64,000 nucleotides of DNA from the NCBI RefSeq assembly GCF_018326305.1, contig NZ_AP023415.1, forward strand, positions 1,178,001-1,242,000, read 5' to 3'. The position numbers and the translations under genes were made by a program. The stretch comes from Vescimonas fastidiosa. Lineage in GTDB: Bacteria > Bacillota > Clostridia > Oscillospirales > Oscillospiraceae. Shown here piece after piece: positions 44,233 to 58,491 of the stretch (positions are counted from its first letter, which is position 1; each line of letters begins with the position of its first letter). Under the pieces are notes generated by a model, which worked only from the letters and a program-made list of their open reading frames with translations, had not been told where the DNA came from and did not search any database.

Positions 44233-44260
44233 AAGGGCGGGGGGTTCCCCGCCCTTTTTT
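44233..44260 (+). terminator. Terminator of upp
   Basis: AAGGGCGGGG-GGTT-CCCCGCCCTT then TTTT. Confidence 0.92.
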
Positions 44261-44317
44261 GCAGGTGTCGAGGGTCCGACAACGGACACACTCCCGGTCT
44301 GTGCGCAGGGGAAATCC

Positions 44318-44545
44318 CCGGGCGGGCGGACAGGGACGTCCGCCCCTACGGAGGGTTGCAAGAAGTGCCTGTGTGCGGGCCGATGTGGGCATCGGCCCCT
44401 ACGAAAGCGTTACAAGGGGTGCAGGAGAGAGCGGAATCCCCCAGTCACGGCTTTGCCGTGACAGCCCCCTTTAGGCAAGGGGGCCTTGGGGACGGGGGTT
44501 ACGGATTGCCACAGCCAGTGTGCGCACTGGCTTCGCAATGACAGG
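44318..44545. repeat. Repeat cluster after upp
   Basis: Family B at about 44329-44351 (GCGGACAG/GTCCGC) and 44377-44403 (GCCGATG/CATCGGC), full family A at 44433-44545 (arm AGCCAGTGTGCGCACTGGCT). Confidence 0.88.
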
Positions 44546-44584
44546 GTGGTTTTACAAGGGGGGCGGTGGGGCGGGCCGATGTGG

Positions 44585-44699
44585 GGAGCGAACTGAGCGC
44601 TGCCAGTGGCAGAGGAAGCGAGGTGAGCGAGTGGCCGCGGTCAAAATTTCCAGCGCCCGCCGTAAGGCAGCGCAGAAATTTTGGGCACCGCAACAGGAT
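44585..44699. repeat. 115-bp nested element, copy 3
   Basis: Between GCCGATGTGG and CATCGGCCCC of a family B hairpin, the same junctions as copy 1. Confidence 0.85.
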
Positions 44700-44834
44700 C
44701 ATCGGCCCCTACGGAGTTGGTTGTAGGGGCGGGTGACTCTGCTCGTCCGGGCGGTGTGCGGGGCATCCGGCGGGAATCATAGGGATGGCTGCGGATTTTT
44801 TTGGTATTTATAGATAAATTCGCAGAATTTCCTG

Positions 44835-44869: not shown

Positions 44870-45060
44870 ACAATCAAGATTGGTAGCTGTAAGGAAGTGC
44901 TTTGCGCACGGGCTGCAACTATCACTCGGCGCTGTGCTTGAGTGTTTCAGATCCTCTCAGGAGGGTTTGGAACATTTTTCGTTATAGGCGGCAGTGTCGA
45001 ATATAGGGAGAAAGGTCTTGACTCAAATCCGTAACAGCGAGAAAACAGCAAGGAGGAAAA
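44870..45060 (+). promoter_or_regulatory. Long structured 5' leader of ssnA, unassigned
   Basis: About 195 transcribed bases precede the ssnA ATG. Visible hairpins: GTGC-TTTGC-GCAC within GTAGC..GCTGC (about 44884-44927), ACTC..GAGT (44933-44953), CCTC-TCA-GGAGG (44955-44967). No T-run terminator is obvious. The leader fits no riboswitch class I can name; a purine, molybdenum or selenium signal would suit the genes. RBS AGGAGG at 45051-45056. Confidence 0.45.
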
Positions 45061-45064
45061 AAGA

Positions 45065-46408
45065 ATGTATTTAGTCACCAACGGCAGACTCATCACCCGT
45101 GACCCCGACGGCAAGGGGTACTATGAGCACGGCGCTGTGGCCTACGAGGGCAGCCAAATCGTAGAGGTAGGCGAGGAAAGTGCCCTGCGGGCCAAGTACG
45201 CGGATGCGGAGATCATCGACGCCAAGGGCGGCGTCATCATGCCCGCCCTCATCAACGCCCACACCCACATCTACTCCGCTTTGGCCAGGGGCCTGTCCAT
45301 TGTGGGCAACAACCCCACCAATTTCTACGAGGTGCTGGACGGAACCTGGTGGGCCATCGACCGCCACCTGATGATGGACGGTACCCGCGCCAGCGCCACC
45401 GCCCTCTACATGGACTCCATCAAGCAGGGCGTCACCACCATCTTTGACCACCACGCTTCTTACGGCGAGATCCCCGGCACCCTGCACACCATTGCCGAAG
45501 AGAGCAAGCGTCTGGGCCTGCGCTCCTGCCTGTGCTATGAGGTCTCCGACCGGGACGGCGAGGAGAAGTGCCTCCAGGCCATTCAGGAGAATGCCGACTT
45601 CATCAGCGAGTGCGAGAAGAACAAGGACCCCATGCTGGCCGCCATGTTCGGCGGGCACGCCCTGTTCACCATCTCCGACAAGACCTTTGACCGCATGGTG
45701 GAGGCCAACAATGGCCGCACCGGCTACCACATCCATGTGTCCGAGGGCATGAACGATGTGTATGACTCCCTGCAGAACTATGGCCGCCGCCCCGTGCAGC
45801 GCCTGCAAGACCATGGCATTCTGGGGGAAAAGACCATCCTGGGCCACTGCATCCATGTGAACACCGCCGAAATGGAGATCATCAAGGAGACCGGCACCAT
45901 GGTGGTGAACAATCCCGAGAGCAATATGGGCAACGCCATCGGCATCTGCCCGGTACTCCAGCTGCACAAGCGGGGCATTCTCCTGGGCATGGGCACCGAC
46001 GCCTATACCAACGACATGCTGGAGTCCCTGAAGGTGGCCCTGTGCTCCCAGCGCAGCCAGAACTGCCTGCCCAATGTGGGCTGGTGCGAGGTCACGGATA
46101 TGCTGTTCAAGAACAACGCCAAGATCGGCGAGAAGTACTTCCCCGCCACCCTGGGCGTGCTGAAGGCCGGCGCCGCCGCCGACATCATCGTGATGGATTA
46201 CAAGCCCTTCACCCCCTTCTCCGATGAGAACATCGACGGCCACATGATCTTCGGCATGACCGGCCGCCAGTGCCAGACCACCATCGCAAACGGCAAGGTC
46301 CTTATGCAGGATCGCGTGCTGGTGGGTATCGATGAGGAGGCCGAGAATGCTCACATCCTGGAGGCCGCCAAGAAGCTTTGGGGAGATCTGAATCACCGGG
46401 TGTATTGA
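45065..46408 (+). CDS. ssnA: Putative aminohydrolase SsnA
   Basis: 447 residues, close to the 442 of E. coli SsnA and similar along its length: MPALINAHTHIYSALARGL (metal-binding HxH), VTTIFDHHASYGEIPG, GYHIHVSEGMNDVYDSL, GHCIHVN and GMGTDAYTNDMLESLK supply the His and Asp ligands. It belongs to the guanine/chlorohydrolase-type amidohydrolases and occurs in purine-breakdown clusters with selenium-dependent molybdenum hydroxylases and ygfK; its substrate is unproven. Preceded by a long leader; the stop overlaps the RAYT start by one base. Confidence 0.9.
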   Translation: MYLVTNGRLITRDPDGKGYYEHGAVAYEGSQIVEVGEESALRAKYADAEIIDAKGGVIMPALINAHTHIYSALARGLSIVGNNPTNFYEVLDGTWWAIDRHLMMDGTRASATALYMDSIKQGVTTIFDHHASYGEIPGTLHTIAEESKRLGLRSCLCYEVSDRDGEEKCLQAIQENADFISECEKNKDPMLAAMFGGHALFTISDKTFDRMVEANNGRTGYHIHVSEGMNDVYDSLQNYGRRPVQRLQDHGILGEKTILGHCIHVNTAEMEIIKETGTMVVNNPESNMGNAIGICPVLQLHKRGILLGMGTDAYTNDMLESLKVALCSQRSQNCLPNVGWCEVTDMLFKNNAKIGEKYFPATLGVLKAGAAADIIVMDYKPFTPFSDENIDGHMIFGMTGRQCQTTIANGKVLMQDRVLVGIDEEAENAHILEAAKKLWGDLNHRVY

Positions 46409-46875
46409 TGTTGCCGAAGCGCAAGAGCCCGCGATTGCCTAACCACGATTACGCCTGTGGTTGGTATTTTGTGACCATATGTACAAAAGATAAGCGGTAC
46501 AGTCTTGGTACTGTCGTAGGGGGCGATGCCCACATCGCCCCGCATGTGGAACTTTCAAATATAGGCTCTGTCGCAGAGATGTACCTCAAACGCATCCCCG
46601 GCATAGACACATATGTTGTTATGCCGAATCATGTGCATTTCATCGTATCCATTGCCACGGAGGGCGGGCCGATGTGGGCATCGGCCCCTACGCAAACATT
46701 GGGATGCTTGGTGCGTTCTTTCAAAACCCTTTCAACGAAAGCTGCCGGGCAAAAACTCTGGCAGCGAGGCTACTACGACCATATCGTTCGGTGTGAGGCG
46801 GATTATCTCCGCATTTGGCAATATATGGATGAAAACCCCGTCCGGTGGACGGAGGACGAGTATTATTTTGAATAA
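46408..46875 (+). CDS. REP-associated tyrosine transposase (RAYT, Y1/IS200-like)
   Basis: 155 residues. The N-terminus GWYFVTICTKDKR, the HUH metal site MPNHVHFIVS (His75, His77) and the Tyr-containing LWQRGYYDHIVR with YMDENPVRW are typical. RAYTs nick single-stranded REP hairpins. The frame contains two family B palindromes, at 46516-46543 (encoding VVGGDAHIAP) and 46664-46692 (encoding GPMWASAPT), in opposite orientation around the HUH site. The ATG at 46408 overlaps the ssnA stop (TGATG) and the gene ends 17 bases before ygfK, so it is expressed within a metabolic operon. Intact, no frameshift. Confidence 0.88.
   Translation: MLPKRKSPRLPNHDYACGWYFVTICTKDKRYSLGTVVGGDAHIAPHVELSNIGSVAEMYLKRIPGIDTYVVMPNHVHFIVSIATEGGPMWASAPTQTLGCLVRSFKTLSTKAAGQKLWQRGYYDHIVRCEADYLRIWQYMDENPVRWTEDEYYFE
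46516..46543 (+). repeat. Family B palindrome inside the RAYT gene, copy 1
   Basis: GTAGGGGGCGATGCCCACAT, continuing as CGCCCCGC; same as the intergenic copy at 26197-26224. Confidence 0.92.
46664..46692 (-). repeat. Family B palindrome inside the RAYT gene, copy 2
   Basis: GCGGGCCGATGTGGGCATCG, continuing as GCCCCTACG; identical to 44375-44403 and in reverse orientation to copy 1. Confidence 0.92.
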
Positions 46876-46892
46876 GTATAGGAGGAAGCCCT

Positions 46893-49844
46893 ATGTCTGA
46901 AAAAATGTATCCCATTCCTTTTAAGTCTCTTATGAACTGGGTGGTCACCGAGTACGCCATGAGCGGTGAGATCTTCGGCGTACACAAGGCCTACAAGGCC
47001 AGCGGCAAGAGCCTGCCCATTTTCGGTGAGCGCATCGAGACCCCCTTCGGGCCCGCCGCCGGTCCCAACAGCCAGCTGGCGCAGAACATCATCGCCGCCT
47101 ACTTCGCCGGGGCCCGCTTCTTTGAGGTCAAGACCGTGCAGAAGATGGACGGCGCCGACCTGGCCGCCTGTGTGCCCAGACCCTGCATCCTGGCAAACGA
47201 CGAGGGCTACAACCAGGAGTGGTCCACGGAGCTGACCGTGCCCCAGGCCATGGACGAATACATCAAGGCCTGGTGCACGCTGAAGGTCCTTTCCAAGGTC
47301 TACGGCCTGGGCGACCCCAACGGGTTCGTATTCAATATGTCCGTGGGCTATGACCTGGAGGGCATCAAGGGCGAGAAGGTGGACACCTACCTCAACGGCA
47401 TGATGGACGCCACCAAGACCGCCATTTTCGGTGAGTGCAAGGCAGTGCTCAAGGAGCTGTTCCCCCAGGAGAGCGACTACATTGACGCCATCTCCCCCTG
47501 CGTTTCCCGCAGCGTCACCGTGTCCACCCTCCACGGCTGCCCCCCGGATGAGATCGAGCGCATTGCCTCCTACCTCATTTCCGAAAAGCACCTGCACACC
47601 TTCGTGAAGTGCAACCCCACCATCCTGGGCTATGAGACCGCCCGGACCATTCTGGACGGCATGGGCTATGACTATATCGTGTTTGACGACCACCACTTCC
47701 GGGAGGACCTCCAGTGGGCGGACGCCGTGCCTATGTTTGAGCGCCTGCAGGATCTGGCCGACAAGTGCGGCCTGGAATTCGGACTGAAGCTCTCCAACAC
47801 CTTCCCCGTGGACACCACCCGGGGTGAGCTGCCCAACGACGAAATGTATATGTCCGGCCGGTCCCTCTTCCCCCTGACCATTGAGATGTGCCACCGGATC
47901 TCCCGCCAGTTCAAGGGTAAGATGCGCATTTCCTTCGCAGGCGGCGCGGAATACTTCAACTGCGACAAGCTCTTTGCCGCCGGTATCTGGCCCATCACCG
48001 TAGCCACCACCATCCTCAAGCCCGGCGGATACAACCGCCTGCTGCAGATGGTGGAAAAGGTGGAGTCCATGCCCTACAAGGCCTTTGACGGCACCTGCAC
48101 CGAGGCCATCTGCGCCCTGTCCGCCGCTTCTCACACGGACTATCACCATGTCAAGCCCATCAAGCCCCTGCCCAAGCGCAAGAGCGAGAAGAATGTGCCC
48201 TGGATCGACTGCTTCACTGCCCCCTGTAAGGGCGGCTGCCCCATCGAGCAGGACATTCCCGAGTATGTGGAGCTGTGCCGCAAGGAGCTGTACGGCCCGG
48301 CCCTGAAGCTTATCACCGAGAAGAATCCCCTGCCCTTCCTCACGGGCACCATCTGCGCGCACCGCTGCCAGAACAAGTGTACCCGCAACTTCTACGAGGA
48401 GTCCGTGCAGATCCGCGACACCAAGCTGGTGGCGGCCTACCACGGCTATGAGGCCCTCATGGCCTCCATCCGGAAGCCCGCTAAGGTTTCCGGCAAGAAG
48501 GCCGCCATCATCGGCGGCGGCCCCACCGGCATCGCCGCGGCCTATTTCCTGGGCCGGGCCGGTATCGAGACCACCATCTTTGAGCGCGAGCGGTGCCTCG
48601 GCGGCGTGCCCCGGCATGTGATCCCCTCCTTCCGCATTGCCAACGAGACCATCGAGAAGGACATTGCCCTGATGCAGAAGTACGATGTGGAGGTCAAGTG
48701 CGGCGCCCCCGCTCCCTCTGTGGAGGAGCTGAAGAAACTGGGCTACACCCACATTCTCTTCGCCGTAGGCGCCTGGAAGCCCGGCAAGCTGGACATCCCC
48801 GGCGATGTGGCCGGTGCCATCCAGTGGATGAAGGGCGTGAAGGCCGGAAACATCGCCGTAGGCGGCAATGTGGTGGTGGTAGGCGGCGGCAACACCGCCA
48901 TGGACGCAGCCCGTCTTGCCAAGCGCAGCGGCGCTAAGAATGTGACCCTGGTGTATCGCCGCACCAAGAAGTATATGCCCGCCGACGAGCATGAGCTGGC
49001 TCTGGCCCTTCAGGACGGCGTGGCCTTTGCCGAGCTGGCCGCCCCCGTGGCCCAGGCGGACGGCGTGCTCAAGTGTGAGCAGATGAAGCTGGGCGAGGCC
49101 GACGCCTCCGGCCGCCGCAGCCCCGTGGGCACCGGCGAGTTCTTCACCGTGCCCTGCGACCTGGTCATCTCCGCCGTGGGTGAGCAGGTGGACGACGCTC
49201 TCATGAGCGCCAACGGCATCGAGCTGGACAAGAAGGGCCGTCCCGCCTTCAAGACCAATGTGGAGGGCGTGTACGCCGCCGGCGACGCCACCCGGGGTCC
49301 CGCCACCGTGGTGGAGGGCATTGCCGACGCCGCCCGGTTCGCAGAGGAAGTTATCGGCGCGGCTCACACCTATGAGATCCCCGCTGCGGCCTATATCACC
49401 AAGGCCGACGCCATCGCTAAGAAGGGCACCCTGCTCATGAGCAAGGACGCCTGCTGCGAGGGCAAGCGCTGCCTGCAGTGCAGCACCGTCTGCGAAAACT
49501 GCGTGGACTCCTGCCCCAACCGGGCTAATGTGGCCATTGCCATGGCCGACGGCAGCCACCAGATCGTCCATGTGGACAAGATGTGCAACGAGTGCGGCAA
49601 CTGCACCCAGTTCTGCCCCTATGCCTCCGAGCCCTGCCACGACAAGTTCACCCTGTTCCAGACCGCGGAGGACATGGTGGACTCCAAGAACGCCGGTGTG
49701 CTGTTCCTGGGCGGCGATATGGTTCGTGTGCGCACCTTCGGTGAGCCCAAGGACTACGATTTGAGCCGCGACAATGACCTGCCCGCCGACCTGGAGAAGC
49801 TGATCGTCACCATTCGTGACAAATACAGCTACCTGTTTGGCTGA
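46893..49844 (+). CDS. ygfK: YgfK-like FAD/Fe-S oxidoreductase (putative selenate reductase subunit)
   Basis: 983 residues (E. coli YgfK about 1030). Order: dihydroorotate-dehydrogenase-like region (~1-400; TPFGPAAGPNSQLAQN, STLHGCPPDEIERIA); Cys cluster APCKGGCPIEQDIPEYV (~447); GltD-like FAD site AAIIGGGPTGIAAAYF (~537) and NAD(P)H site VVVVGGGNTAMDAARLAK (~660); then two [4Fe-4S] ferredoxin sites (RCLQCSTVCENCVDSCP and MCNECGNCTQFCPY, ~865-910). Such proteins pass electrons in purine or selenium-linked reactions; the true substrate is unknown. RBS AGGAGG 9 bases before the ATG. The selenium hydroxylase usually found with it is not in the window. Confidence 0.88.
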   Translation: MSEKMYPIPFKSLMNWVVTEYAMSGEIFGVHKAYKASGKSLPIFGERIETPFGPAAGPNSQLAQNIIAAYFAGARFFEVKTVQKMDGADLAACVPRPCILANDEGYNQEWSTELTVPQAMDEYIKAWCTLKVLSKVYGLGDPNGFVFNMSVGYDLEGIKGEKVDTYLNGMMDATKTAIFGECKAVLKELFPQESDYIDAISPCVSRSVTVSTLHGCPPDEIERIASYLISEKHLHTFVKCNPTILGYETARTILDGMGYDYIVFDDHHFREDLQWADAVPMFERLQDLADKCGLEFGLKLSNTFPVDTTRGELPNDEMYMSGRSLFPLTIEMCHRISRQFKGKMRISFAGGAEYFNCDKLFAAGIWPITVATTILKPGGYNRLLQMVEKVESMPYKAFDGTCTEAICALSAASHTDYHHVKPIKPLPKRKSEKNVPWIDCFTAPCKGGCPIEQDIPEYVELCRKELYGPALKLITEKNPLPFLTGTICAHRCQNKCTRNFYEESVQIRDTKLVAAYHGYEALMASIRKPAKVSGKKAAIIGGGPTGIAAAYFLGRAGIETTIFERERCLGGVPRHVIPSFRIANETIEKDIALMQKYDVEVKCGAPAPSVEELKKLGYTHILFAVGAWKPGKLDIPGDVAGAIQWMKGVKAGNIAVGGNVVVVGGGNTAMDAARLAKRSGAKNVTLVYRRTKKYMPADEHELALALQDGVAFAELAAPVAQADGVLKCEQMKLGEADASGRRSPVGTGEFFTVPCDLVISAVGEQVDDALMSANGIELDKKGRPAFKTNVEGVYAAGDATRGPATVVEGIADAARFAEEVIGAAHTYEIPAAAYITKADAIAKKGTLLMSKDACCEGKRCLQCSTVCENCVDSCPNRANVAIAMADGSHQIVHVDKMCNECGNCTQFCPYASEPCHDKFTLFQTAEDMVDSKNAGVLFLGGDMVRVRTFGEPKDYDLSRDNDLPADLEKLIVTIRDKYSYLFG

Positions 49845-49947: not shown

Positions 49948-52900
49948 TCAGCCGTTCTCGCGCTTTTTGCGGCGGACTGCCACCAGGGCGCCCAGGCCGC
50001 ACAGGGCTGCCAGGGAAACCCACAGGGTCAGGCTGGCGGTGTCACCGGTGGGCACCACGGCGGGTGCAGCGGTAACGGTGAACACAGTCTCAGCTGTGCC
50101 GGAGGCGGAGGTCACACCCAGGGTGTGCTGCCCCACGGACAGGGTGCTCAGGTAATCGGCCTTCAGCGTCACCAGAATACTTCCCTCCCGGAGGGTGTAC
50201 TGGGTAGCATCCAGCACTTTGCCGTCCACGCTGACGGAGAGGAAGTCCTCGAAGGAGGCATCGGATCGGAAGGTCAGATCGGTATTGCCGCCGGACTGGT
50301 GCTTGCCGTTGGCGCCCTCCACGATGGTGGGAGCCAGCTTCGCCACAGGCTCGGTGCGCAGCACCAAGCCACAGACGGTGCAGGTGAAGGTCTTTTCACC
50401 CTCCACAGCAGCGGTGGGTTCCTTGGTGATCTTGCCCTCGTCGGAGATGTGCTTCTCAACGGTGGAGGTCACATCGCAGTCATCGCGCTTGCAGGTCTGC
50501 CAGTGGCCGGTTTCATCGTGCAGATAGGGCTGGCCTGCAAAGTCGTGGCCCAGGGCGGTGCCTGCGGCGGTGAAGGTCTCGCTGCCGTTTTCGGCGCAGC
50601 GCTCACAGCTCTTATAGTACACAGCGTCCTCGGTGCAGGTGGCGGCGCTCTTCAGGTGGGCGGCGCCGGTGTCCTCCCGGGTGTAGCTGTGGCCCAGAGC
50701 GGTATCCGCAGCGATGAAGGTCTCGGTGCCGTTCTTGCCGCAGCGCTCGCAGCTCTTATAGTACACAGCGTCCTCGGTGCAGGTGGCGGGGGTCTTCAGG
50801 TGCTCGGCACCGGTGTCTTCCTTGGTATAGCTGTGGCCCAGGGGGTTGCCGTCGGTGAAGGTCTTGTCCGTGCTGTGGGTATCACAGCGGGAGCAGTCGT
50901 AATAGTACACGGCGGCCTCGGTGCAGGTGGCACCGCTCTTCAGGTGCGCATCATCCACCAGCTTCTCGGTGAAGTTGTGGCCCAGGGGATCACCATAGGA
51001 ATAGGTATCCGCGGTACTGTGCTCATTGCAGCGGGAGCAGTCGTAGTAGTACACGGCAGACTCGGTGCAGGTGGCGGCACTCTTCAGGTGGGCGGCATCT
51101 GTCACTTTCTCGGTGAAGTTGTGGCCCAGGGGATCACCATAGGAATAGGTATCCGCGGTGCTGTGGGTATCGCAGCGGGAGCAGTCGTAGTAGTACACGG
51201 CAGACTCGGTGCAGGTAGCGGCACTCTTCAGGTGGGCGGCATCTGTCACTTTCTCGGTGAAGTCGTGGCCCAGGGGATCACCATAGGAATAGGTATCCGC
51301 GGTGCTGTGGGTATCGCAGCGGGAGCAGTCGTAGTAGTACACGGCGGCCTCGGTGCAGGTGGCACCACTCTTCAGGTGAGCGGCATCTGTCACTTTCTCG
51401 GTGAAGTCGTGGCCCAGGGCGGACTTCAGGAAGCGATCGTTGGTGTCGTAAGCCTTAGAGGTATCCATGTCGCCGTTCTTGTCGGCAAAATACTTGCCGC
51501 AGTCGGCGCAGTGCCAGTAGGCATCGTTGCCGGGCTGGGTGCAGGTGGGTGCCTTGGCTTCCGTCTTTTGGGCCAGAAGATGGTTATTGGGGTCCTTATC
51601 CGCCAGCTTGTAGCCGCAAACCTGGCACTTGGACTCGGCTACGCAGGTGGCTTCATTGGCGGAATGGGCCTGGTGGGCTGTCTCCTGGGTGCAGCTGTCG
51701 TGCTTGCAGATCTGCCAGTGCTCGGTGGTGCTGGTCTTATAGGGCTGGCCGGAGAAGTCGTGGCCCAGAGCGTTCAGCAGGAAGCTGGCATTACTGTTGT
51801 AAGCGACGGTGGAATCCAGCTTGCCGTCCTTGTCGGCATAGTAGTTGCCGCAGTCGGCGCAGTACCAATAGGCATCGTTGCCGCCCACTTCGCAGGTGGG
51901 AGCCACGGCCTTCGTCTGTTTAGCGTTCTTATGGGTCAGAGCCGCGATGTCAAAGGCGCTGGCGTCGTCATACAGAGTCTTGTCGCCGTCCTTGAAATAC
52001 TTGTGGCAGTCGGCGCAGTAGTTATAAGCCTCGTTGCCCGCAGCGCCGCAGGTGGGAGCCTTGTAAGCGGTGGAAGTGACCTTGCCCTCGGTGTGGTTGT
52101 GGGCATTGAACTCGCCATACTGGGCATGGCAGGTGGTACACACAGCCTTGGTGACGCAGGTGGCGGGGGTGTCGGTCATGTGGTTTCCACGCTCCTCGGC
52201 GGAGCAGCCGGGCACGGTGCAGTTGCGCCAGTGCTGGGTGTCGTCATGCTGCCAACTGCCCCAAACATGATCGGTGGGGTGCTGGATGGTAAAGGTCCAG
52301 GTGGCTGCCGTGAGGCCATCGGTGGGAGCGAAGTTACCGTCGCCGGTGATGACCAGATACACCTGGTAGGTGCCGGGATCGGTGGGATTCTCTACCACCT
52401 TGTCGCCCTGCTTATACACCAGAGAGGTCTTGCAGCCGCCCAGGGTCAGAGGAGCCTTCAGGCTAATGGTGGCGGCCTTGGCATTGCCGTCCCAAATCAG
52501 GTTTTCGGGGGCAGCAAAGGTGAAGTCCTGCGCCTGGGCCGCTCTCTTGGAGATGATCCAGGTGAGGGTGTTGCTCTCGGGGGTGGCGCTCCACTGGTAT
52601 CTATCCTCTTCCAGCTTCACAGTCACGGTGTAGGAGCCCGCGTTGGTGGCCTTGGTGATGCCCTCCACGGTGTAGCCCTCGTCGCCGATGGGCAGGGTGT
52701 GCTCTTTACCGGTATAGGTGTAGCTGAGGCTGGGTGCGGGGAAGCTGATCGCCTTGAGATACTTAGGTACGGTCACGGCGGCAGCATCGGAGGTGTAGGA
52801 AATATCCGTTGCCTTGACGCGGACATAGTAGGTGCCCTGGCCGCCTACGGTGGTAGTGCCCTCGGCGCAGGGGGTCCAGGTCTCGCTGTCGGGAGAGGTG

Positions 52901-55900
52901 GCCCACTCCATAGTGGCCTTGGTGCCGCTGATCTTGCCGTCCACGGCCTCCCAGGTGCTGGGAGCCACGCCCTGAAGGCCGCCGGGAGCGGCGGGGGTGG
53001 TCTTAGCGGTGGCGGCGGGGAGGATCAGGGTCACTTCCTCCGCCGTGGGGGTGCCGGAGACGGTGATCTGGGTGAGGCTGTCACGGGTGACGGTGATGCC
53101 GTCCTTGGACAGATTGGCCGCGTAGTCCTCGGGGAAGTAGCAGCCTTCTTCGGCGGTGATGGTCACATTCGCAATGGGATGCTTCTTCAAAACCGTCTGC
53201 TTCAGGTCGCCGGAGGCGGTCATGTTCTTGCCCGGGGTGACGGTGACGGTGCTGGACTCGGCGATGATGTAAAGCTGATTCTTGTCGGCATCCAGCTTCA
53301 CCTCATAGCCCTCATCGCTGGTGAAATAGCCCTTGCTGGTCGCATCGCCGGTGATATAGACGGGTGCGATGGTGCCGCCGTCCTTCAGGGGCTTTATCTC
53401 GGTGGTGACACCGATGGTGGAGCCTGCGGTGAGGCCGGTGACAGCGGGGAGCATTGTTCCAGCAGTCACTTCAGGGAAATAGAGGTTGTTGACCACTCCC
53501 TCGGCGTTATTGCCGGTAATATTCATCTTGCCGGACAGCTCAAAGACCCAGCCGTTGCCGTGGCTGCTTTTGGGAATGATACGGGCATTCACACCGCCGC
53601 CGCCCCATTTTTCGAGCTTGGTGGCCGTATTGCCGGTGATGGTGGTGTCGCTGATCTTCACGGGGCCGGAGGTGCTGATGCCGCCGCCGCATTTAGCGGT
53701 GTTATTTTGAATGGTGGCATTCTGGATGACAGCGGGGATATAGGGGTCACTTGCGGTTCCATTGCCCTTGGCTTCGGAAATATAAATACCGCCGCCCAGG
53801 CTCTCCCCGCCGTTATTGCCGGTGACGGTGGCGCCGTCAATGGTGAGGGCGCTGTCCCACACGCATACCCCGCCGCCGCCTTTCGCCGCGGTGTTGTCGG
53901 TGATGTTGGCTTTGCCAATGGTGAGGGTAGCCTTCTTCGCGTAGATGCCGCCGCCCTCAGCCGCAGAGCTGCCGGTGATGGTGCCGCCGTTGATGATGAC
54001 GGTAGCGCCATCGTTGTACACAGCGCCGCCGTGGCCGGCCCACCCGCGGGAACCATTATCTTTTTCGGTTTCAGAGGCCTTGCCGGTGACGGTGCCGCCG
54101 TTCATGACGAATCTGCCGCCAGAGACATACACGGCGCCGCCGCTGCCGTTGAGGGCCTTGCCGCTGAGGGAGCCGTCGTTCATGATGAATTTGCCGCTTC
54201 CGACATATACGGCACCGCCGTTGCCGCTGGCGGTCCAGGCGGAGATAGAGCCGCCGTTCATGATGAAGGTGCCGCCATTGACCCACACGCCGCCGCCGTT
54301 AGGCGTGCTGCTGGAGTAGCTGGGCCATTGCGCCCAAAGGTCGGTGAGCTGGCCGTTCCACAGGGTGAAGGTGGAGCCGGAGTTCACTTTCACGCCGCGG
54401 GAGTAGCCGGTAGAATTATAGATGCAGCTGATCCTGCCGGAATTATCCACAGAGCAGTCGGTAATGGCAACGGAATTCTTATTTTTGATATTAATGATAG
54501 CGTCGTCTGAGCGGGAGCTGTCCCCGATCCAACCGCCGTTGAGACAGATGTTATAGTCCCCGGTGGGGGTCCATTGATTATAAGTGTAAGACCGCAGCAG
54601 GTAGTAGTTGCCCGCAGGCAGGTCCTTCAGCTCGGTAACGCCGATCCAGTTGAGCTTTTCGTGGGTGTGGGTGCTGTCGGCGGTGTTTTCCCCGGTGCCG
54701 CAGACACAGTGGGTGTGGCCCTTACCGTTGTGCCACAGCTCCAGGCCGGTATTGCCCGAGGTCAGCAGGGGGCCGGACTTGTCGGTGGTAGGCCGCAGGA
54801 CAAAGCTGCTGTCGTCTGCGTGGAAGCCCTTTCCGCTGGTGTTGCCCGAAACCACCAGGGAGGGAATATCCCAGGCGCTGAGGCCGATGGAGCTGGTGGT
54901 CTTGAAGCCGCTGTCCGTGGTGATGGCGCAGCCGGAGCCTATCATAACATTGCAGTCAACAACGGTCGTCGTGTCCTGATAGTAGGCATTATAGGAAATC
55001 CGGGACTTGTTGTTCTTCACCACGACCTTGCCGGTGAAAACGGGGGCGTTGGTGCTGTCCACAGCGATGCCGCCGCCGCGCCTTTCGGATTTGTTATCCT
55101 CAACGGTGGTGTTCTTGATGGTGGCCGTACCCTTGCCGTAGAGGTAGATGCCGCCGCCGTCGCCGTGAGAGAGGTTTTGGGTGACGGTGCAGTCTTCAAT
55201 GAGGGTAGTGCCCGGGCAGCCGCTGTTGATGGCGCAGCCCCGGCTGTTTTCGTAATTTGCATTTTGGGTGTTATTGGCATTGCCCGTGAAGGTGCAGTTC
55301 TTCACCGTGAAGCTGCCCGTGGTTGCGCCCTTGTCCGTGAACCAGAGGGTGGGGGCACCCATGGCGTTATTCTTAAAGGTGCTGTCCGTCACCGTGACCT
55401 CGCTGCCGGTGGAGGCCACCAGGAAGCCGCTCTTGTTATTAGAGTATTCGCAGCCGCTGATGTTGACGGTGGCGCCGGTAGCCGAGATAAAGGTGCTGCC
55501 GGTTTTCTCCTTCACGGTCACATTGGTCAGGTTGAGAGTACTGCCGGAGGTAGTTTCGATGTTGTTGCTGCCGGAGCTGTAGGAATAGCCGGTGATGTAG
55601 CCGGGGGTCGCGGTGCCATGCTTGCAGTCGGTGATGTTCAGAGTGCCGCTGTTTTTGAAGTAGATGGGCTCGCTCTTGTGGCCGTTGAGGCAGACATTTA
55701 CGGTGTTATTCGCGCCCACGGTCACACTACTGGACATCTTGGAATCCTGCAGCAGGTAATAATTGCCGGTGGCATTGCTGGGGATCTCGGCCAGCGAATA
55801 GACGGGGGTGTAGGTAATGCCATCGTGGGTGTGGGCCGGTATCCTGGCCAGCACATCTTCGCCGTCGCCGTCACGGACCAGGGTGATCTTTTCCGCCTCG

Positions 55901-58491
55901 AAGGCGAAGCGGCTGTCGCCGTCACGAATATCCTTGCCGGTGTTGGTGATTACCGCGGTACCCTCTGCCTTCTGAATGCGCGCCAGGGGCAGGGAGAGGG
56001 TGATGCTGCTGCCGTCCGCCGGAGCCACCGGAGCTATGAGCTTCTTCGCGCCGGGGAGATAGAGGTTGTGCCCGGTGGTTTTTTCGGAGGTGTTATTCCG
56101 GACGATGATGGTGCCGGTGCCCAGGTTCACGGTACCCTTGGTGTCCACATAGAGGCCGCCGCCCTCGTAGAAGGCGGTATTGTCCTCGATGGTGCCGCCA
56201 TTGAGGCTCATGGTGCCGCCTACGAACACGCCGCCGCCGTAGAGGTTTTTCGCATCGCTCTGATACTGGCTCGTCATGGTGTTGGACTTGAGGGAGGATT
56301 TTTCACTCATGGTGAAGGTGCCGCCCTCACTGACATAGACGCCTGCACCCTGGGCAACACTGTCGCTATAGCCGTTGCGGACGAGGTTCCCCTCCACACC
56401 GGCGTTTCCACTCATGGTGAAGGTGCCGCTGGCGCCCACAAAGACGCCGCCGCCCTTGTGCTCGTAGTGCCTATAGTCCATCTGGGCTTTGTTGCCGCTG
56501 ATCTTGGCATCGCCGGTCATTTCGAAGGTGCCTTTGACCACGGCCACGCCGCCGCCGTTGCGGGAGGCAGTGTTGCCGGAAATTTCGCCGCCGGTCATGG
56601 TGAATTTGCCGCCAGCGCCGATATACACAGCGCCGCCGTCACCCTGGACATTGCCCCCACCGGCCCGGTTGTTCTTGATAACGCCGCCGGTCATGGTGAA
56701 TTTGCCGCCGTTCACATAAACGGCACCGCCGTTAAAGGTGCCGCTGGCCCGTTCATCGTGGGCAGAACGGTTGCCGGAGAGCTCGCCGTCATAGAGGTTA
56801 AATTTGCCGGTGGAGTTTACCAGCACGCCGCCGATATAGTTGCTATCGGCGCCGATCCAGCCGGTGCCCTGGTTATTCTTGATGGAGCCGCCATACATAT
56901 TAAATATACCGTTGACCTCCACAGCACCCGCCTTGAGCCCGGTCTGATAGGAGTAGAGGGTATTGTCGCAGATGCTGCCGTTATAGAGGTTGAAGGTGGC
57001 TCTGGCGCCGATGATAACGCCGCTGGCCCCGTCGACATTGCCGTTGCTATCGACGATGCCAGTGACCTTGCCGTCGGTGCCGCAGTCGGTGAGGTTAAAG
57101 GTGATATAGGTGTCTTTCAATTCGATGGCCGCCGTTTTCCACGCCGCATGGATGGCGTGGCCGTTGAGACACAGGGTAACCCCGAAATTGGGCTTCCAGG
57201 TTTTGGTGAGGGTCACATCGTTCAGCAGGTAGTAGCTGCCGCTATCCTTGATCAGGTCCAGGCTGCTGACGCCCTTGCAGGTGATCTTCTGATGGCCGGT
57301 GCCGGTCTCTTGGCAGTCGGTACGGCCACAGATGCAGTGGGTGTGGTCATCCTTGCCCACCAGCTCAAGATCGCCGCCGGTGGTGGCCTTGAGCTTGGTT
57401 TCGGTGCGGTCGGCGGTGAAATAGCCGGTTTCGCTGTCGTTGGCATAGCCGGTGACCAGGGTGGAGGGGATGTTCGCGCCGGAAATGCCGACCTGGCTGC
57501 CCTCTTGCAGGCCGGAGCCGCTGACGGTCTTACCGGCGGCCAGGTACACATTGTTGGAGCTGCCCTTGCCGGTGTTGCCGGTGATGTTGGTGACACCGCT
57601 GACGGTGAAGGTGGTGCCGGCAAAGTACACGCCGCCGCCCAGCTGCTGGGAGGTGTTGCCGGTGATGGTGGTGCCGCTGAGGTTCAGGACAATATCGCCG
57701 GAGTTATTGGTGGACGCGCCATAGATGGCGCCGCCGTTACCGTTGGCGGTGGTGTTCTCGATGATGCTGTCCTGAATGTCCATGGTCACTCGACCGCTGG
57801 TGAAGATGGCGCCGCCCTGCGCGTAGTTAGCAGAGCCGGTGGTGGAGCAGCCGGAGATGGTGGCGCTCTTCATGGTGAAGGTGATGGCGCCGGTAGAGTA
57901 GTTGCTCCAGGGTTCATAGATCATGGCAATGGCGCCGCCCCGGTAGCTGGTGGTGCAGTCCTTGATGGCGCTGCCCTCTTCCATGACCACCTTACCCGTG
58001 GACACATAGACGGCGGCACCGTAGCTGGTGGTAGCGCAGTTCTGGATGATAGCGCCCTGACCCAAGGTCAGCTGCGTGTCATTGGAGCCGGACACAAAAA
58101 CGAATGTGTTTTTGGCCGTTACAGCGTCCTTGTTGCCGTCCAGGATGATGTTTTTGAAGGTCAGCTTACCAGCTTTCAGCCGGAACGCATACTCACTTTT
58201 ATAGTCGTCTGCGCTGGCCTGGAAGGAAGCGGAGCGAAGCAGCTTATAGGTGCTGCCCTCCTGGCTTCGTATGGTGATGTCCTTCTTTGAGCTGGAGATA
58301 GTCAGTTCCTGCGTCAGCTCAATGTCGTTCGTCACGACGATGTCGATGGTGTCGGCATCGCTGGCAATTGCTGCTTGCAATTCCTCAAAGGTGCCGACTT
58401 CCGTCGTGCCGTCCGCTGCCCACACCGTGGCCGGGACCAGGCTGAGAGCCAGGACCAGGGCCATGAGCAGGCTTCCTATGCGTTTTTTCAT
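49948..58491 (-). CDS. Giant repetitive cell-surface protein (beta-helix, MBG-like and Cys-rich repeats, sortase anchor)
   Basis: 2847 residues. Signal peptide MKKRIGSLLMALVLALSLVP to AADG; AAGGAGG lies 8 bases before the ATG. Residues ~30-1750 are a long series of short repeats (GGGVYFAG, GGAVYVNGGKF and many variants) typical of right-handed parallel beta-helices as in polymorphic adhesins. About 1870-2065 resembles MBG/Ig-like modules (SYTYTGKEHTLPI). From ~2097 a Cys-pair-rich stretch includes six 48-residue tandem units (see 50552-51415). The C-terminus VVPTGDTASLTLWVSLAALC then RRKKRENG is a sortase-type anchor. Probably a host- or mucus-contacting adhesin. It is likely switched on by the MerR-type regulator encoded divergently. 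Confidence 0.85.
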   Translation of the reverse strand: MKKRIGSLLMALVLALSLVPATVWAADGTTEVGTFEELQAAIASDADTIDIVVTNDIELTQELTISSSKKDITIRSQEGSTYKLLRSASFQASADDYKSEYAFRLKAGKLTFKNIILDGNKDAVTAKNTFVFVSGSNDTQLTLGQGAIIQNCATTSYGAAVYVSTGKVVMEEGSAIKDCTTSYRGGAIAMIYEPWSNYSTGAITFTMKSATISGCSTTGSANYAQGGAIFTSGRVTMDIQDSIIENTTANGNGGAIYGASTNNSGDIVLNLSGTTITGNTSQQLGGGVYFAGTTFTVSGVTNITGNTGKGSSNNVYLAAGKTVSGSGLQEGSQVGISGANIPSTLVTGYANDSETGYFTADRTETKLKATTGGDLELVGKDDHTHCICGRTDCQETGTGHQKITCKGVSSLDLIKDSGSYYLLNDVTLTKTWKPNFGVTLCLNGHAIHAAWKTAAIELKDTYITFNLTDCGTDGKVTGIVDSNGNVDGASGVIIGARATFNLYNGSICDNTLYSYQTGLKAGAVEVNGIFNMYGGSIKNNQGTGWIGADSNYIGGVLVNSTGKFNLYDGELSGNRSAHDERASGTFNGGAVYVNGGKFTMTGGVIKNNRAGGGNVQGDGGAVYIGAGGKFTMTGGEISGNTASRNGGGVAVVKGTFEMTGDAKISGNKAQMDYRHYEHKGGGVFVGASGTFTMSGNAGVEGNLVRNGYSDSVAQGAGVYVSEGGTFTMSEKSSLKSNTMTSQYQSDAKNLYGGGVFVGGTMSLNGGTIEDNTAFYEGGGLYVDTKGTVNLGTGTIIVRNNTSEKTTGHNLYLPGAKKLIAPVAPADGSSITLSLPLARIQKAEGTAVITNTGKDIRDGDSRFAFEAEKITLVRDGDGEDVLARIPAHTHDGITYTPVYSLAEIPSNATGNYYLLQDSKMSSSVTVGANNTVNVCLNGHKSEPIYFKNSGTLNITDCKHGTATPGYITGYSYSSGSNNIETTSGSTLNLTNVTVKEKTGSTFISATGATVNISGCEYSNNKSGFLVASTGSEVTVTDSTFKNNAMGAPTLWFTDKGATTGSFTVKNCTFTGNANNTQNANYENSRGCAINSGCPGTTLIEDCTVTQNLSHGDGGGIYLYGKGTATIKNTTVEDNKSERRGGGIAVDSTNAPVFTGKVVVKNNKSRISYNAYYQDTTTVVDCNVMIGSGCAITTDSGFKTTSSIGLSAWDIPSLVVSGNTSGKGFHADDSSFVLRPTTDKSGPLLTSGNTGLELWHNGKGHTHCVCGTGENTADSTHTHEKLNWIGVTELKDLPAGNYYLLRSYTYNQWTPTGDYNICLNGGWIGDSSRSDDAIINIKNKNSVAITDCSVDNSGRISCIYNSTGYSRGVKVNSGSTFTLWNGQLTDLWAQWPSYSSSTPNGGGVWVNGGTFIMNGGSISAWTASGNGGAVYVGSGKFIMNDGSLSGKALNGSGGAVYVSGGRFVMNGGTVTGKASETEKDNGSRGWAGHGGAVYNDGATVIINGGTITGSSAAEGGGIYAKKATLTIGKANITDNTAAKGGGGVCVWDSALTIDGATVTGNNGGESLGGGIYISEAKGNGTASDPYIPAVIQNATIQNNTAKCGGGISTSGPVKISDTTITGNTATKLEKWGGGGVNARIIPKSSHGNGWVFELSGKMNITGNNAEGVVNNLYFPEVTAGTMLPAVTGLTAGSTIGVTTEIKPLKDGGTIAPVYITGDATSKGYFTSDEGYEVKLDADKNQLYIIAESSTVTVTPGKNMTASGDLKQTVLKKHPIANVTITAEEGCYFPEDYAANLSKDGITVTRDSLTQITVSGTPTAEEVTLILPAATAKTTPAAPGGLQGVAPSTWEAVDGKISGTKATMEWATSPDSETWTPCAEGTTTVGGQGTYYVRVKATDISYTSDAAAVTVPKYLKAISFPAPSLSYTYTGKEHTLPIGDEGYTVEGITKATNAGSYTVTVKLEEDRYQWSATPESNTLTWIISKRAAQAQDFTFAAPENLIWDGNAKAATISLKAPLTLGGCKTSLVYKQGDKVVENPTDPGTYQVYLVITGDGNFAPTDGLTAATWTFTIQHPTDHVWGSWQHDDTQHWRNCTVPGCSAEERGNHMTDTPATCVTKAVCTTCHAQYGEFNAHNHTEGKVTSTAYKAPTCGAAGNEAYNYCADCHKYFKDGDKTLYDDASAFDIAALTHKNAKQTKAVAPTCEVGGNDAYWYCADCGNYYADKDGKLDSTVAYNSNASFLLNALGHDFSGQPYKTSTTEHWQICKHDSCTQETAHQAHSANEATCVAESKCQVCGYKLADKDPNNHLLAQKTEAKAPTCTQPGNDAYWHCADCGKYFADKNGDMDTSKAYDTNDRFLKSALGHDFTEKVTDAAHLKSGATCTEAAVYYYDCSRCDTHSTADTYSYGDPLGHDFTEKVTDAAHLKSAATCTESAVYYYDCSRCDTHSTADTYSYGDPLGHNFTEKVTDAAHLKSAATCTESAVYYYDCSRCNEHSTADTYSYGDPLGHNFTEKLVDDAHLKSGATCTEAAVYYYDCSRCDTHSTDKTFTDGNPLGHSYTKEDTGAEHLKTPATCTEDAVYYKSCERCGKNGTETFIAADTALGHSYTREDTGAAHLKSAATCTEDAVYYKSCERCAENGSETFTAAGTALGHDFAGQPYLHDETGHWQTCKRDDCDVTSTVEKHISDEGKITKEPTAAVEGEKTFTCTVCGLVLRTEPVAKLAPTIVEGANGKHQSGGNTDLTFRSDASFEDFLSVSVDGKVLDATQYTLREGSILVTLKADYLSTLSVGQHTLGVTSASGTAETVFTVTAAPAVVPTGDTASLTLWVSLAALCGLGALVAVRRKKRENG
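50552..51415 (-). repeat. Six tandem 144-bp coding repeats in the giant surface protein
   Basis: Each unit encodes 48 residues beginning LGH(D/N/S)(F/Y)T, with HLKS.ATCTE, VYYYDCSRC or VYYKSCERC, ending before the next LGH. The first four (about 50840-51415) are nearly identical at DNA level, the last two diverged, indicating recent unit duplication. Two CxxC-like Cys plus His per unit suggest a metal-binding or disulfide knuckle. Confidence 0.9.

Follow-up and report, generated by a model that had tools for sequence, protein, structure and literature searches.

A REPIN, in the sense of Bertels and Rainey, is reportedly made of two inverted REPs able to fold as one long hairpin, and the 2018 paper on subclass 2.4 of the tnpAREP genes is said to be the work of Quentin et al. 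In the part of the literature at hand, two inverted REPs are described as always flanking RAYT genes, with which they apparently co-evolve (Nunvar et al., 2010, PMC2817692). The E. coli TnpAREP recognises single-stranded REPs and cleaves them at a CT beside the hairpin, the GTAG being crucial, according to the portion of PMC8266576 available. Closest to our subject are the accessible sections of PMC6006769 (2018), in which REPs lying in frame within tnpAREP genes are given as a predominant and unique trait of subclass 2.4, to which Bertels group 4 is assigned. There, the in-frame REPs come on top of flanking ones and generally sit between HuH and Y; they may have little effect on protein activity, and a surface placement is reported. 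The core phenomenon presented here, namely in-frame REPs inside RAYT genes, is already known from this subclass, as far as those sections go (PMC6006769). Within the literature searched, REPs inside RAYT genes were reported in that paper only.

The window is the whole stretch of DNA analyzed, i.e. 64,000 nucleotides of Vescimonas fastidiosa (contig NZ_AP023415.1 of the host genome), and its relevant features are given in Table 1. The protein encoded between ssnA and ygfK can be identified as a RAYT by its HUH motif, its WQ...R residues, a profile match to PDB 4er8 and the associated REPs. This filing rests on these residues, on that match and on the REPs because the window protein alone stays under the curated cut-offs of Pfam Y1_Tnp (PF01797; 21.4 vs 23 bits) and of NF047646 (57.9 vs 80 bits). 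The profile match was obtained with alignment A1, which includes the window protein and matches E. coli TnpAREP (4er8) with an E value of 7.8e-11. Residues H75, H77 and Y139 were unchanged in sequence across the 11 aligned proteins, that of the window included. Tyr139 is presumably the catalytic residue, as we take it from the alignment to E. coli TnpAREP, in which this residue is numbered Y115. Among the equivalents of W94, Q95 and R104 of E. coli TnpAREP, conserved residues named in the consulted part of PMC6006769, Q119 and R128 were invariant and W118 was present in at least 90% of the 11-sequence alignment. The protein ends 8 residues after W147, without a C-terminal extension past the core. 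The PHROGs comparison led to a family without a name, and the viral-contig scan gave a single weak locus. The ORF coordinates agree with the earlier note in that the RAYT gene starts on the stop codon of ssnA, its ATG (46408-46410) sharing bases with the TGA (TGATG), and in that 17 nt separate its stop, ending at 46875, from the ATG of ygfK at 46893. Further along the window, at 49948-58491 on the minus strand, lies an ORF of 2847 aa with internal repeats, an apparent signal peptide and an apparent C-terminal membrane anchor.

Table 1. Positions in the window of the RAYT gene, its REPs and its neighbours.
Feature	Positions	Strand	Evidence or detail
ssnA RNA motif (RF03031), cis-regulatory RNA upstream of ssnA	44877..44924	+	69 bits
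ssnA, putative aminohydrolase	45065..46408	+	NF005540, 605 bits
RAYT (TnpAREP) ORF, 155 aa	46408..46875	+	HUH residues H75/H77, presumed catalytic Tyr139
ygfK, putative selenate reductase subunit	46893..49844	+	TIGR03315, 1270 bits
In-gene REP 1 (site 1, before HUH strand)	46516..46541	+	GTAG foot 46516-46519 and hairpin 46520-46541
In-gene REP 2 (site 2, after HUH strand)	46666..46691	-	hairpin 46666-46687 and CTAC 46688-46691 (GTAG on minus strand)
Inverted REP pair around HUH-coding segment	46516..46691	.	REPIN-like ssDNA fold predicted
Intergenic REP, same family, identical to in-gene REP 2	44377..44402	-	

Two palindromes are present within the RAYT ORF, both in frame and in opposite orientations, with the H75/H77 codons between them; coordinates and motif positions here bear out what had been noticed from the sequence at first. 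In-gene REP 1 has a 9-bp stem and a 4-nt loop and encodes VGGDAHIAP, and in-gene REP 2 encodes GGPMWASAPT. The identity of one in-gene copy to an intergenic one also held, extending over 29 nt (46664-46692 and 44375-44403). The window contains 8 matches to the hairpin with up to 3 mismatches, against 0.01 expected by shuffling. Over the 2.50-Mb host genome, the 22-nt hairpin has 110 matches at the same limit (54 and 56 by strand) and the reversed pattern none. The in-gene palindromes of the window are REPs of a family that is abundant in the host genome, and a chance origin of in-gene hairpins was rejected by the shuffles and the reversed-pattern controls. No inverted REPs flank the window gene, the closest other REP of the same family in the window being 2 kb off, at 44377. 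The intergenic region at 44240-44760 is a crowded block of several repeat types, including the palindrome CCAGTGTGCGCACTGG, which is also present in the G010 junction upstream of a threonine synthase-like gene.

The survey of the window gene's relatives comprised 162 distinct RAYT genes from genomes of the family and from named contigs, among the matches listed. The sampling was seeded with profile A1, i.e. 11 genus sequences mostly with in-gene REPs, and flank-type genes are for this reason perhaps under-sampled. A gene could be parsed in 72 of the 80 named loci, 13 of the 60 fetched regions (L164-L223) held no gene by the motif pattern, and alignment A2 consisted of 78 sequences, the window's and 77 others picked from 110 of 158 references. 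REP detection thresholds vary between the individual counts of this survey. In the first 110 genes, hairpins with a score of at least 8 were detected at site 1 in 47 genes and at site 2 in 57, where shuffles of synonymous codons gave expectations of 2.7 and 2.3; at the two gene ends, hairpins were present in 2 and 3 genes. When the foot was relaxed to GT[AG]G, 145 of the 162 genes proved to contain one or more in-gene REPs, and 118 an inverted pair occupying these two sites; one REP only or another arrangement was seen in 27, some perhaps by chance. Search windows read backwards indeed gave 23 hits vs 275 forward (648 window-strands), so a few single in-gene hits may be fortuitous. In the second RAYT examined in the host genome (L002), sites 1 and 2 are occupied by a different hairpin, and relatives in the genus likewise have different hairpins there. 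The coupling, at first called unusual, can no longer be described in this way, given the 145 related genes and the in-frame REPs published in 2018 in the text seen of PMC6006769.

That this anatomy might be a peculiarity of one gene or one operon was rejected, since relatives at other loci have the same. A general trait of Y1 transposases was rejected too, 10 RAYT-like genes (161-286 aa, those parsed from 30 phylum loci) being without a tagged hairpin. Inside the rayT gene of E. coli K-12, GTAG and CTAC are both absent. Across the 80 named loci, the density of REPs per 10 kb was 28.8 in RAYT ORFs, 5.3 in intergenic DNA and 0.49 in other ORFs of at least 200 aa (39 REPs in 0.80 Mb), i.e. a 58-fold excess of RAYT ORFs over other long ORFs.

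Some variants of the arrangement were also observed. L085 and L205 have both in-gene REPs in reversed orientation, with GTAG inward. L040 and L046 show a tandem expansion of in-gene REPs, with 5 and 3 near-identical copies in one frame and a repeated peptide. In four Chloroflexota RAYTs (L117, L123, L128, L130), site 2 alone is occupied, by one perfect GTAG...CTAC palindrome.

The 300-nt flanks could be compared in 153 of the 162 genes. Among the 137 genes with in-gene REPs, 105 had no REP within 300 nt and 3 were flanked on both sides, whereas all 16 genes without in-gene REPs had at least one REP within this distance, 11 of them on both sides (Fisher 8e-11 for both-side flanking, uncorrected for relatedness). 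With a limit of 150 nt, 16 of 17 genes without in-gene REPs were flanked, 12 on both sides. In our sample, in-gene REPs mostly take the place of flanking REPs, the two being nearly exclusive. The upstream + and downstream - REPs had the orientation of the in-gene pair in all 11 both-side flank sets, several of which also hold REPs in other orientations; the best opposite-orientation pair in flank sets had an identity of 0.73-1.00. On the core-protein tree, a quick tree of 124 columns with many unresolved forks, 10 changes between the in-gene and flank states are needed, of which supported branches impose 3 or more, and the independent-pairs test of in-gene vs flanking REPs offered 3 supported contrasts only. 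The window gene groups on this quick tree (SH-aLRT 92, inner forks unresolved) with the in-gene types L074, L154 and L193 and with the flank types L059, L062, L063 and L100. The REP downstream of the L063 gene equals window REP 2 over 26 nt, the flanking REPs of L062 differ from it at 2 positions, and L059 and L100 are flanked by REPs of different types.

We consider it fairly likely that the window gene represents a REPtron in internalised form, its inverted pair of cognate REPs having moved inside the ORF. RAYTs would generally be bracketed by such a pair; in the group of the window gene, it would have been relocated into two protein loops, one preceding and one following the HUH strand as placed by the sequence alignment to 4er8, with GTAG still pointing outward. 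The pair would be held in cis because the RAYT recognises its hairpin type, and would accompany the gene through every copying or transfer. Dispersed REPs may also derive from it or use it as a template, and it may let the RAYT act on its own gene or mRNA. We infer cognate recognition, the source role and any regulation from the patterns reported here.

A different reading of the same pair makes autoregulation its main function: the REPs would pair in mRNA or ssDNA, and the RAYT would bind or cut them, thereby limiting its own synthesis. The segment 46513-46696 is predicted, as ssDNA, to fold by pairing of the two REPs with each other (z -6.0), and the RNA 46380-46900 has a predicted fold with z -3.1 (1 of 100 shuffles equally low). 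The same inverted pair is also retained in most relatives examined, but a coding location is not required for such a control, since flank-type RAYTs have the pair outside the ORF. As the main function, autoregulation appears quite improbable to us; self-targeting or autoregulation by the window RAYT, as imagined in the earlier note, is possible as judged from its sequence.

The two hairpins of a gene are closely matched. In the 112 paired genes, hairpin identity was 0.955 within genes vs 0.580 between genes (0 of 5000 permutations as high), and the stems are diverse, with 41 distinct 9-nt stem starts in 76 genes. Hairpin identity rises with that of the protein core, from 0.52-0.55 (core identity below 0.5) to 0.63 (0.5-0.6), 0.86 (0.6-0.7) and 0.97 (0.7-0.8), and the Mantel test of hairpin vs core gave r 0.31 (0/2000). 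Stem changes compensated on both sides numbered 154 vs 31 others at a core identity of 0.55-0.65, and 29 vs 6 at 0.65-0.8, as counted on same-length hairpins with at most 10 differences in gene pairs that share genes and are non-independent. Where the amino acid is the same, codons were identical in 913 of 999 cases (91%) inside REPs vs 3503 of 7052 (50%) outside, over 83 non-independent pairs. The RAYT genes are under purifying selection, with a dN/dS of 0.07-0.27 in the 9 gene pairs, of 10, for which it was computable. Gene conversion with genomic REPs could yield part of the hairpin match and of the codon conservation.

Such conversion enters into a reading close to that of the available text of PMC6006769, in which REPs would land in permissive surface loops with little consequence and be kept alike by genomic REPs. 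The variability of the loops and the surface placement reported in the sections consulted of PMC6006769 agree with tolerated insertions, as do the REPs found in other ORFs and the tandem expansions in L040 and L046. The occupation of the same two sites in one orientation by matched pairs in most of the genes surveyed speaks against it, and so do the codon conservation, the excess over other long ORFs and the near-exclusivity with flanking REPs; altogether we regard tolerance alone as rather unlikely. The REP-encoded peptides might also act themselves, for example as substrate-recognition loops. Most of the members examined indeed have such loops, which change from one REP family to another. 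Against this, DNA complementarity and synonymous codons are preserved between genes whose peptides differ, and flank-type members do without the loops, which makes a peptide function barely credible. As for homologues with the same peptide segments and no such repeats, on which the earlier note had made its reading depend, the homologues examined mostly differ in these peptides, and their own repeats encode them.

We now return to the internalised pair and to the relation between each gene and the REPs of its genome. The hairpin of two G032 RAYTs, an unusual one, has 41 matches in G032 and a single one in G044, with none in the 45 remaining genomes searched. Four genomes have a RAYT with the hairpin of the GGCGGGACCTATGTGTCCCGCC family, and the matches to this family number 49, 50, 63 and 157 in them, as against at most 3 in 41 of 43 other genomes (strands counted apart, some sites twice). 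In the genomes G000 and G011, 39 and 35 matches were found (strands counted apart) and no RAYT of the type; these REPs are possibly orphans after RAYT loss. In G000, the NF047646 search gives three matches, and two RAYTs were examined. Private variants are also common to gene and genome. Among 18 listed window-family sites of G080, 10 (two of them in its RAYT) are exactly one of G080's in-gene sequences, and the window's loop occurs in none of the 18. A mismatch in the in-gene stem of G011 is present in 21 of 22 listed sites, of 43. Near the gene, copies of the own family are only about 2.5- to 3-fold over foreign ones, and 9-13 of 38 loci contain one own copy or more. The in-gene REPs are probably the cognate substrate of the window RAYT type, since REP and protein core diverge together and private variants are shared by gene and genome; the presumption that the palindromes are substrates is strengthened to this extent.

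Within the genus, a RAYT hit was obtained in 10 genomes, 7 of which have 15-62 sites of the L002 family; all 22 genomes without a hit have at most 2. G015, G022, G025 and G028 hold 31-55 sites of it and their examined RAYTs carry other hairpins; the family therefore tracks the presence of any RAYT in the genus and not strictly that of a matching one. These unmatched REP families in four genus genomes weaken the reading of the window gene as an internalised REPtron. G108 has 104 matches of a further family, with no matching RAYT found among those examined; REP families unmatched in this sense are common. RAYT replacement at one site could leave unmatched REP families behind. At one intergenic site upstream of a threonine synthase-like gene (L286-L308), 7 of 23 genus genomes have RAYTs, which belong to roughly three lineages that differ in their REPs, and no RAYT match was found at this position in the other 16; this site looks like a hot spot of insertion or replacement.

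The position of the gene in its operon was examined separately. A ygfK match was present in 43 genomes, and 30 ssnA-ygfK loci were compared, that of the window and 29 others. In all 29 others, no RAYT match was found between ssnA and ygfK, which are adjacent and on one strand; the gap is 39 nt in the nearest relative. Among the loci compared, the RAYT between ssnA and ygfK is an insertion private to the host genome, and its operon position is incidental. The wedge into a purine operon, pointed out in the earlier note, is not a conserved regulatory link, as it was found in 1 of 30 loci, in the host genome only. Fifteen of the 29 other junctions were inspected closely, together with one with an uncertain end; among these 16 loci, L229 (G062) has in its junction two inverted REPs of the same family type as those of the window, and L240 a lone REP. 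In a consensus scan, promoter-like sites were not above chance. This result, the stop/start overlap and the ygfK ribosome site after the RAYT make co-transcription with ssnA plausible, and the ssnA RNA motif of the host genome may control the RAYT too.

More broadly, RAYTs may depend on having two inverted cognate REPs in cis, whether these surround the gene or lie within it. The group would then have switched between flanking and internal pairs several times, each gene would be a one-ORF REPtron with its own readable substrate and with the HUH segment as the spacer of a REPIN, and any gene transfer would found a new REP family. We put forward this generalization tentatively, its chances being a little short of even. 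If the presumed cognate REP can be read from the gene itself, more than 100 enzyme-substrate pairs would be available for binding or cleavage tests. A further prediction follows from the inside-or-outside pattern: to function or to persist, a RAYT should require an inverted REP pair linked to it. This bears on which RAYT pairs with which REP and on why both persist together.

Compared with described systems, the window gene appears to fit subclass 2.4 in the features tested, namely in-frame REPs and the lack of a C-terminal extension. Shared with this subclass are HUH-Y1, this same lack, a variable insertion between HUH and Y, the in-frame REPs, and a GTAG foot with a G-C stem bottom; the GTAG...CTAC form of L117, L123, L128 and L130 resembles the "double foot" type in the seen part of the subclass 2.4 paper (PMC6006769). 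Unlike what the available text of PMC6006769 describes for this subclass, the REPs here form a matched inverted pair, one member lies before HUH, and the pair mostly replaces flanking REPs. With intragenic GTAG REPs (Di Nocera et al., 2013, PMC3733652), the genes share GTAG palindromes translated within ORFs, whereas the host genes listed in the part at hand of that paper are repair and other genes, RAYT not being among them. In common with the gammaproteobacterial REPtron, as it appears in the consulted part of PMC2817692, are an inverted cognate pair linked to the RAYT, co-divergence, palindromes that are kept in spite of changes, and dispersed copies; the window REPs, which we presume to be cognate, do have a dispersed genomic family. 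The pair flanks the ORF in the REPtron and lies inside it in the group of the window gene (PMC2817692, same part). Two inverted REPs and one long hairpin, here a predicted fold, are shared with REPINs; the spacer differs, as it is here the coding sequence of the catalytic HUH strand. A matched inverted in-gene pair mostly replacing the flanking pair was not found described in the literature searched, and Figure S10 of PMC6006769, a paper seen in part, might show site 1. New with respect to the text of PMC6006769 at our disposal are the inverted pair at the same sites, the match within each gene, the codon conservation and the replacement of flanking REPs.
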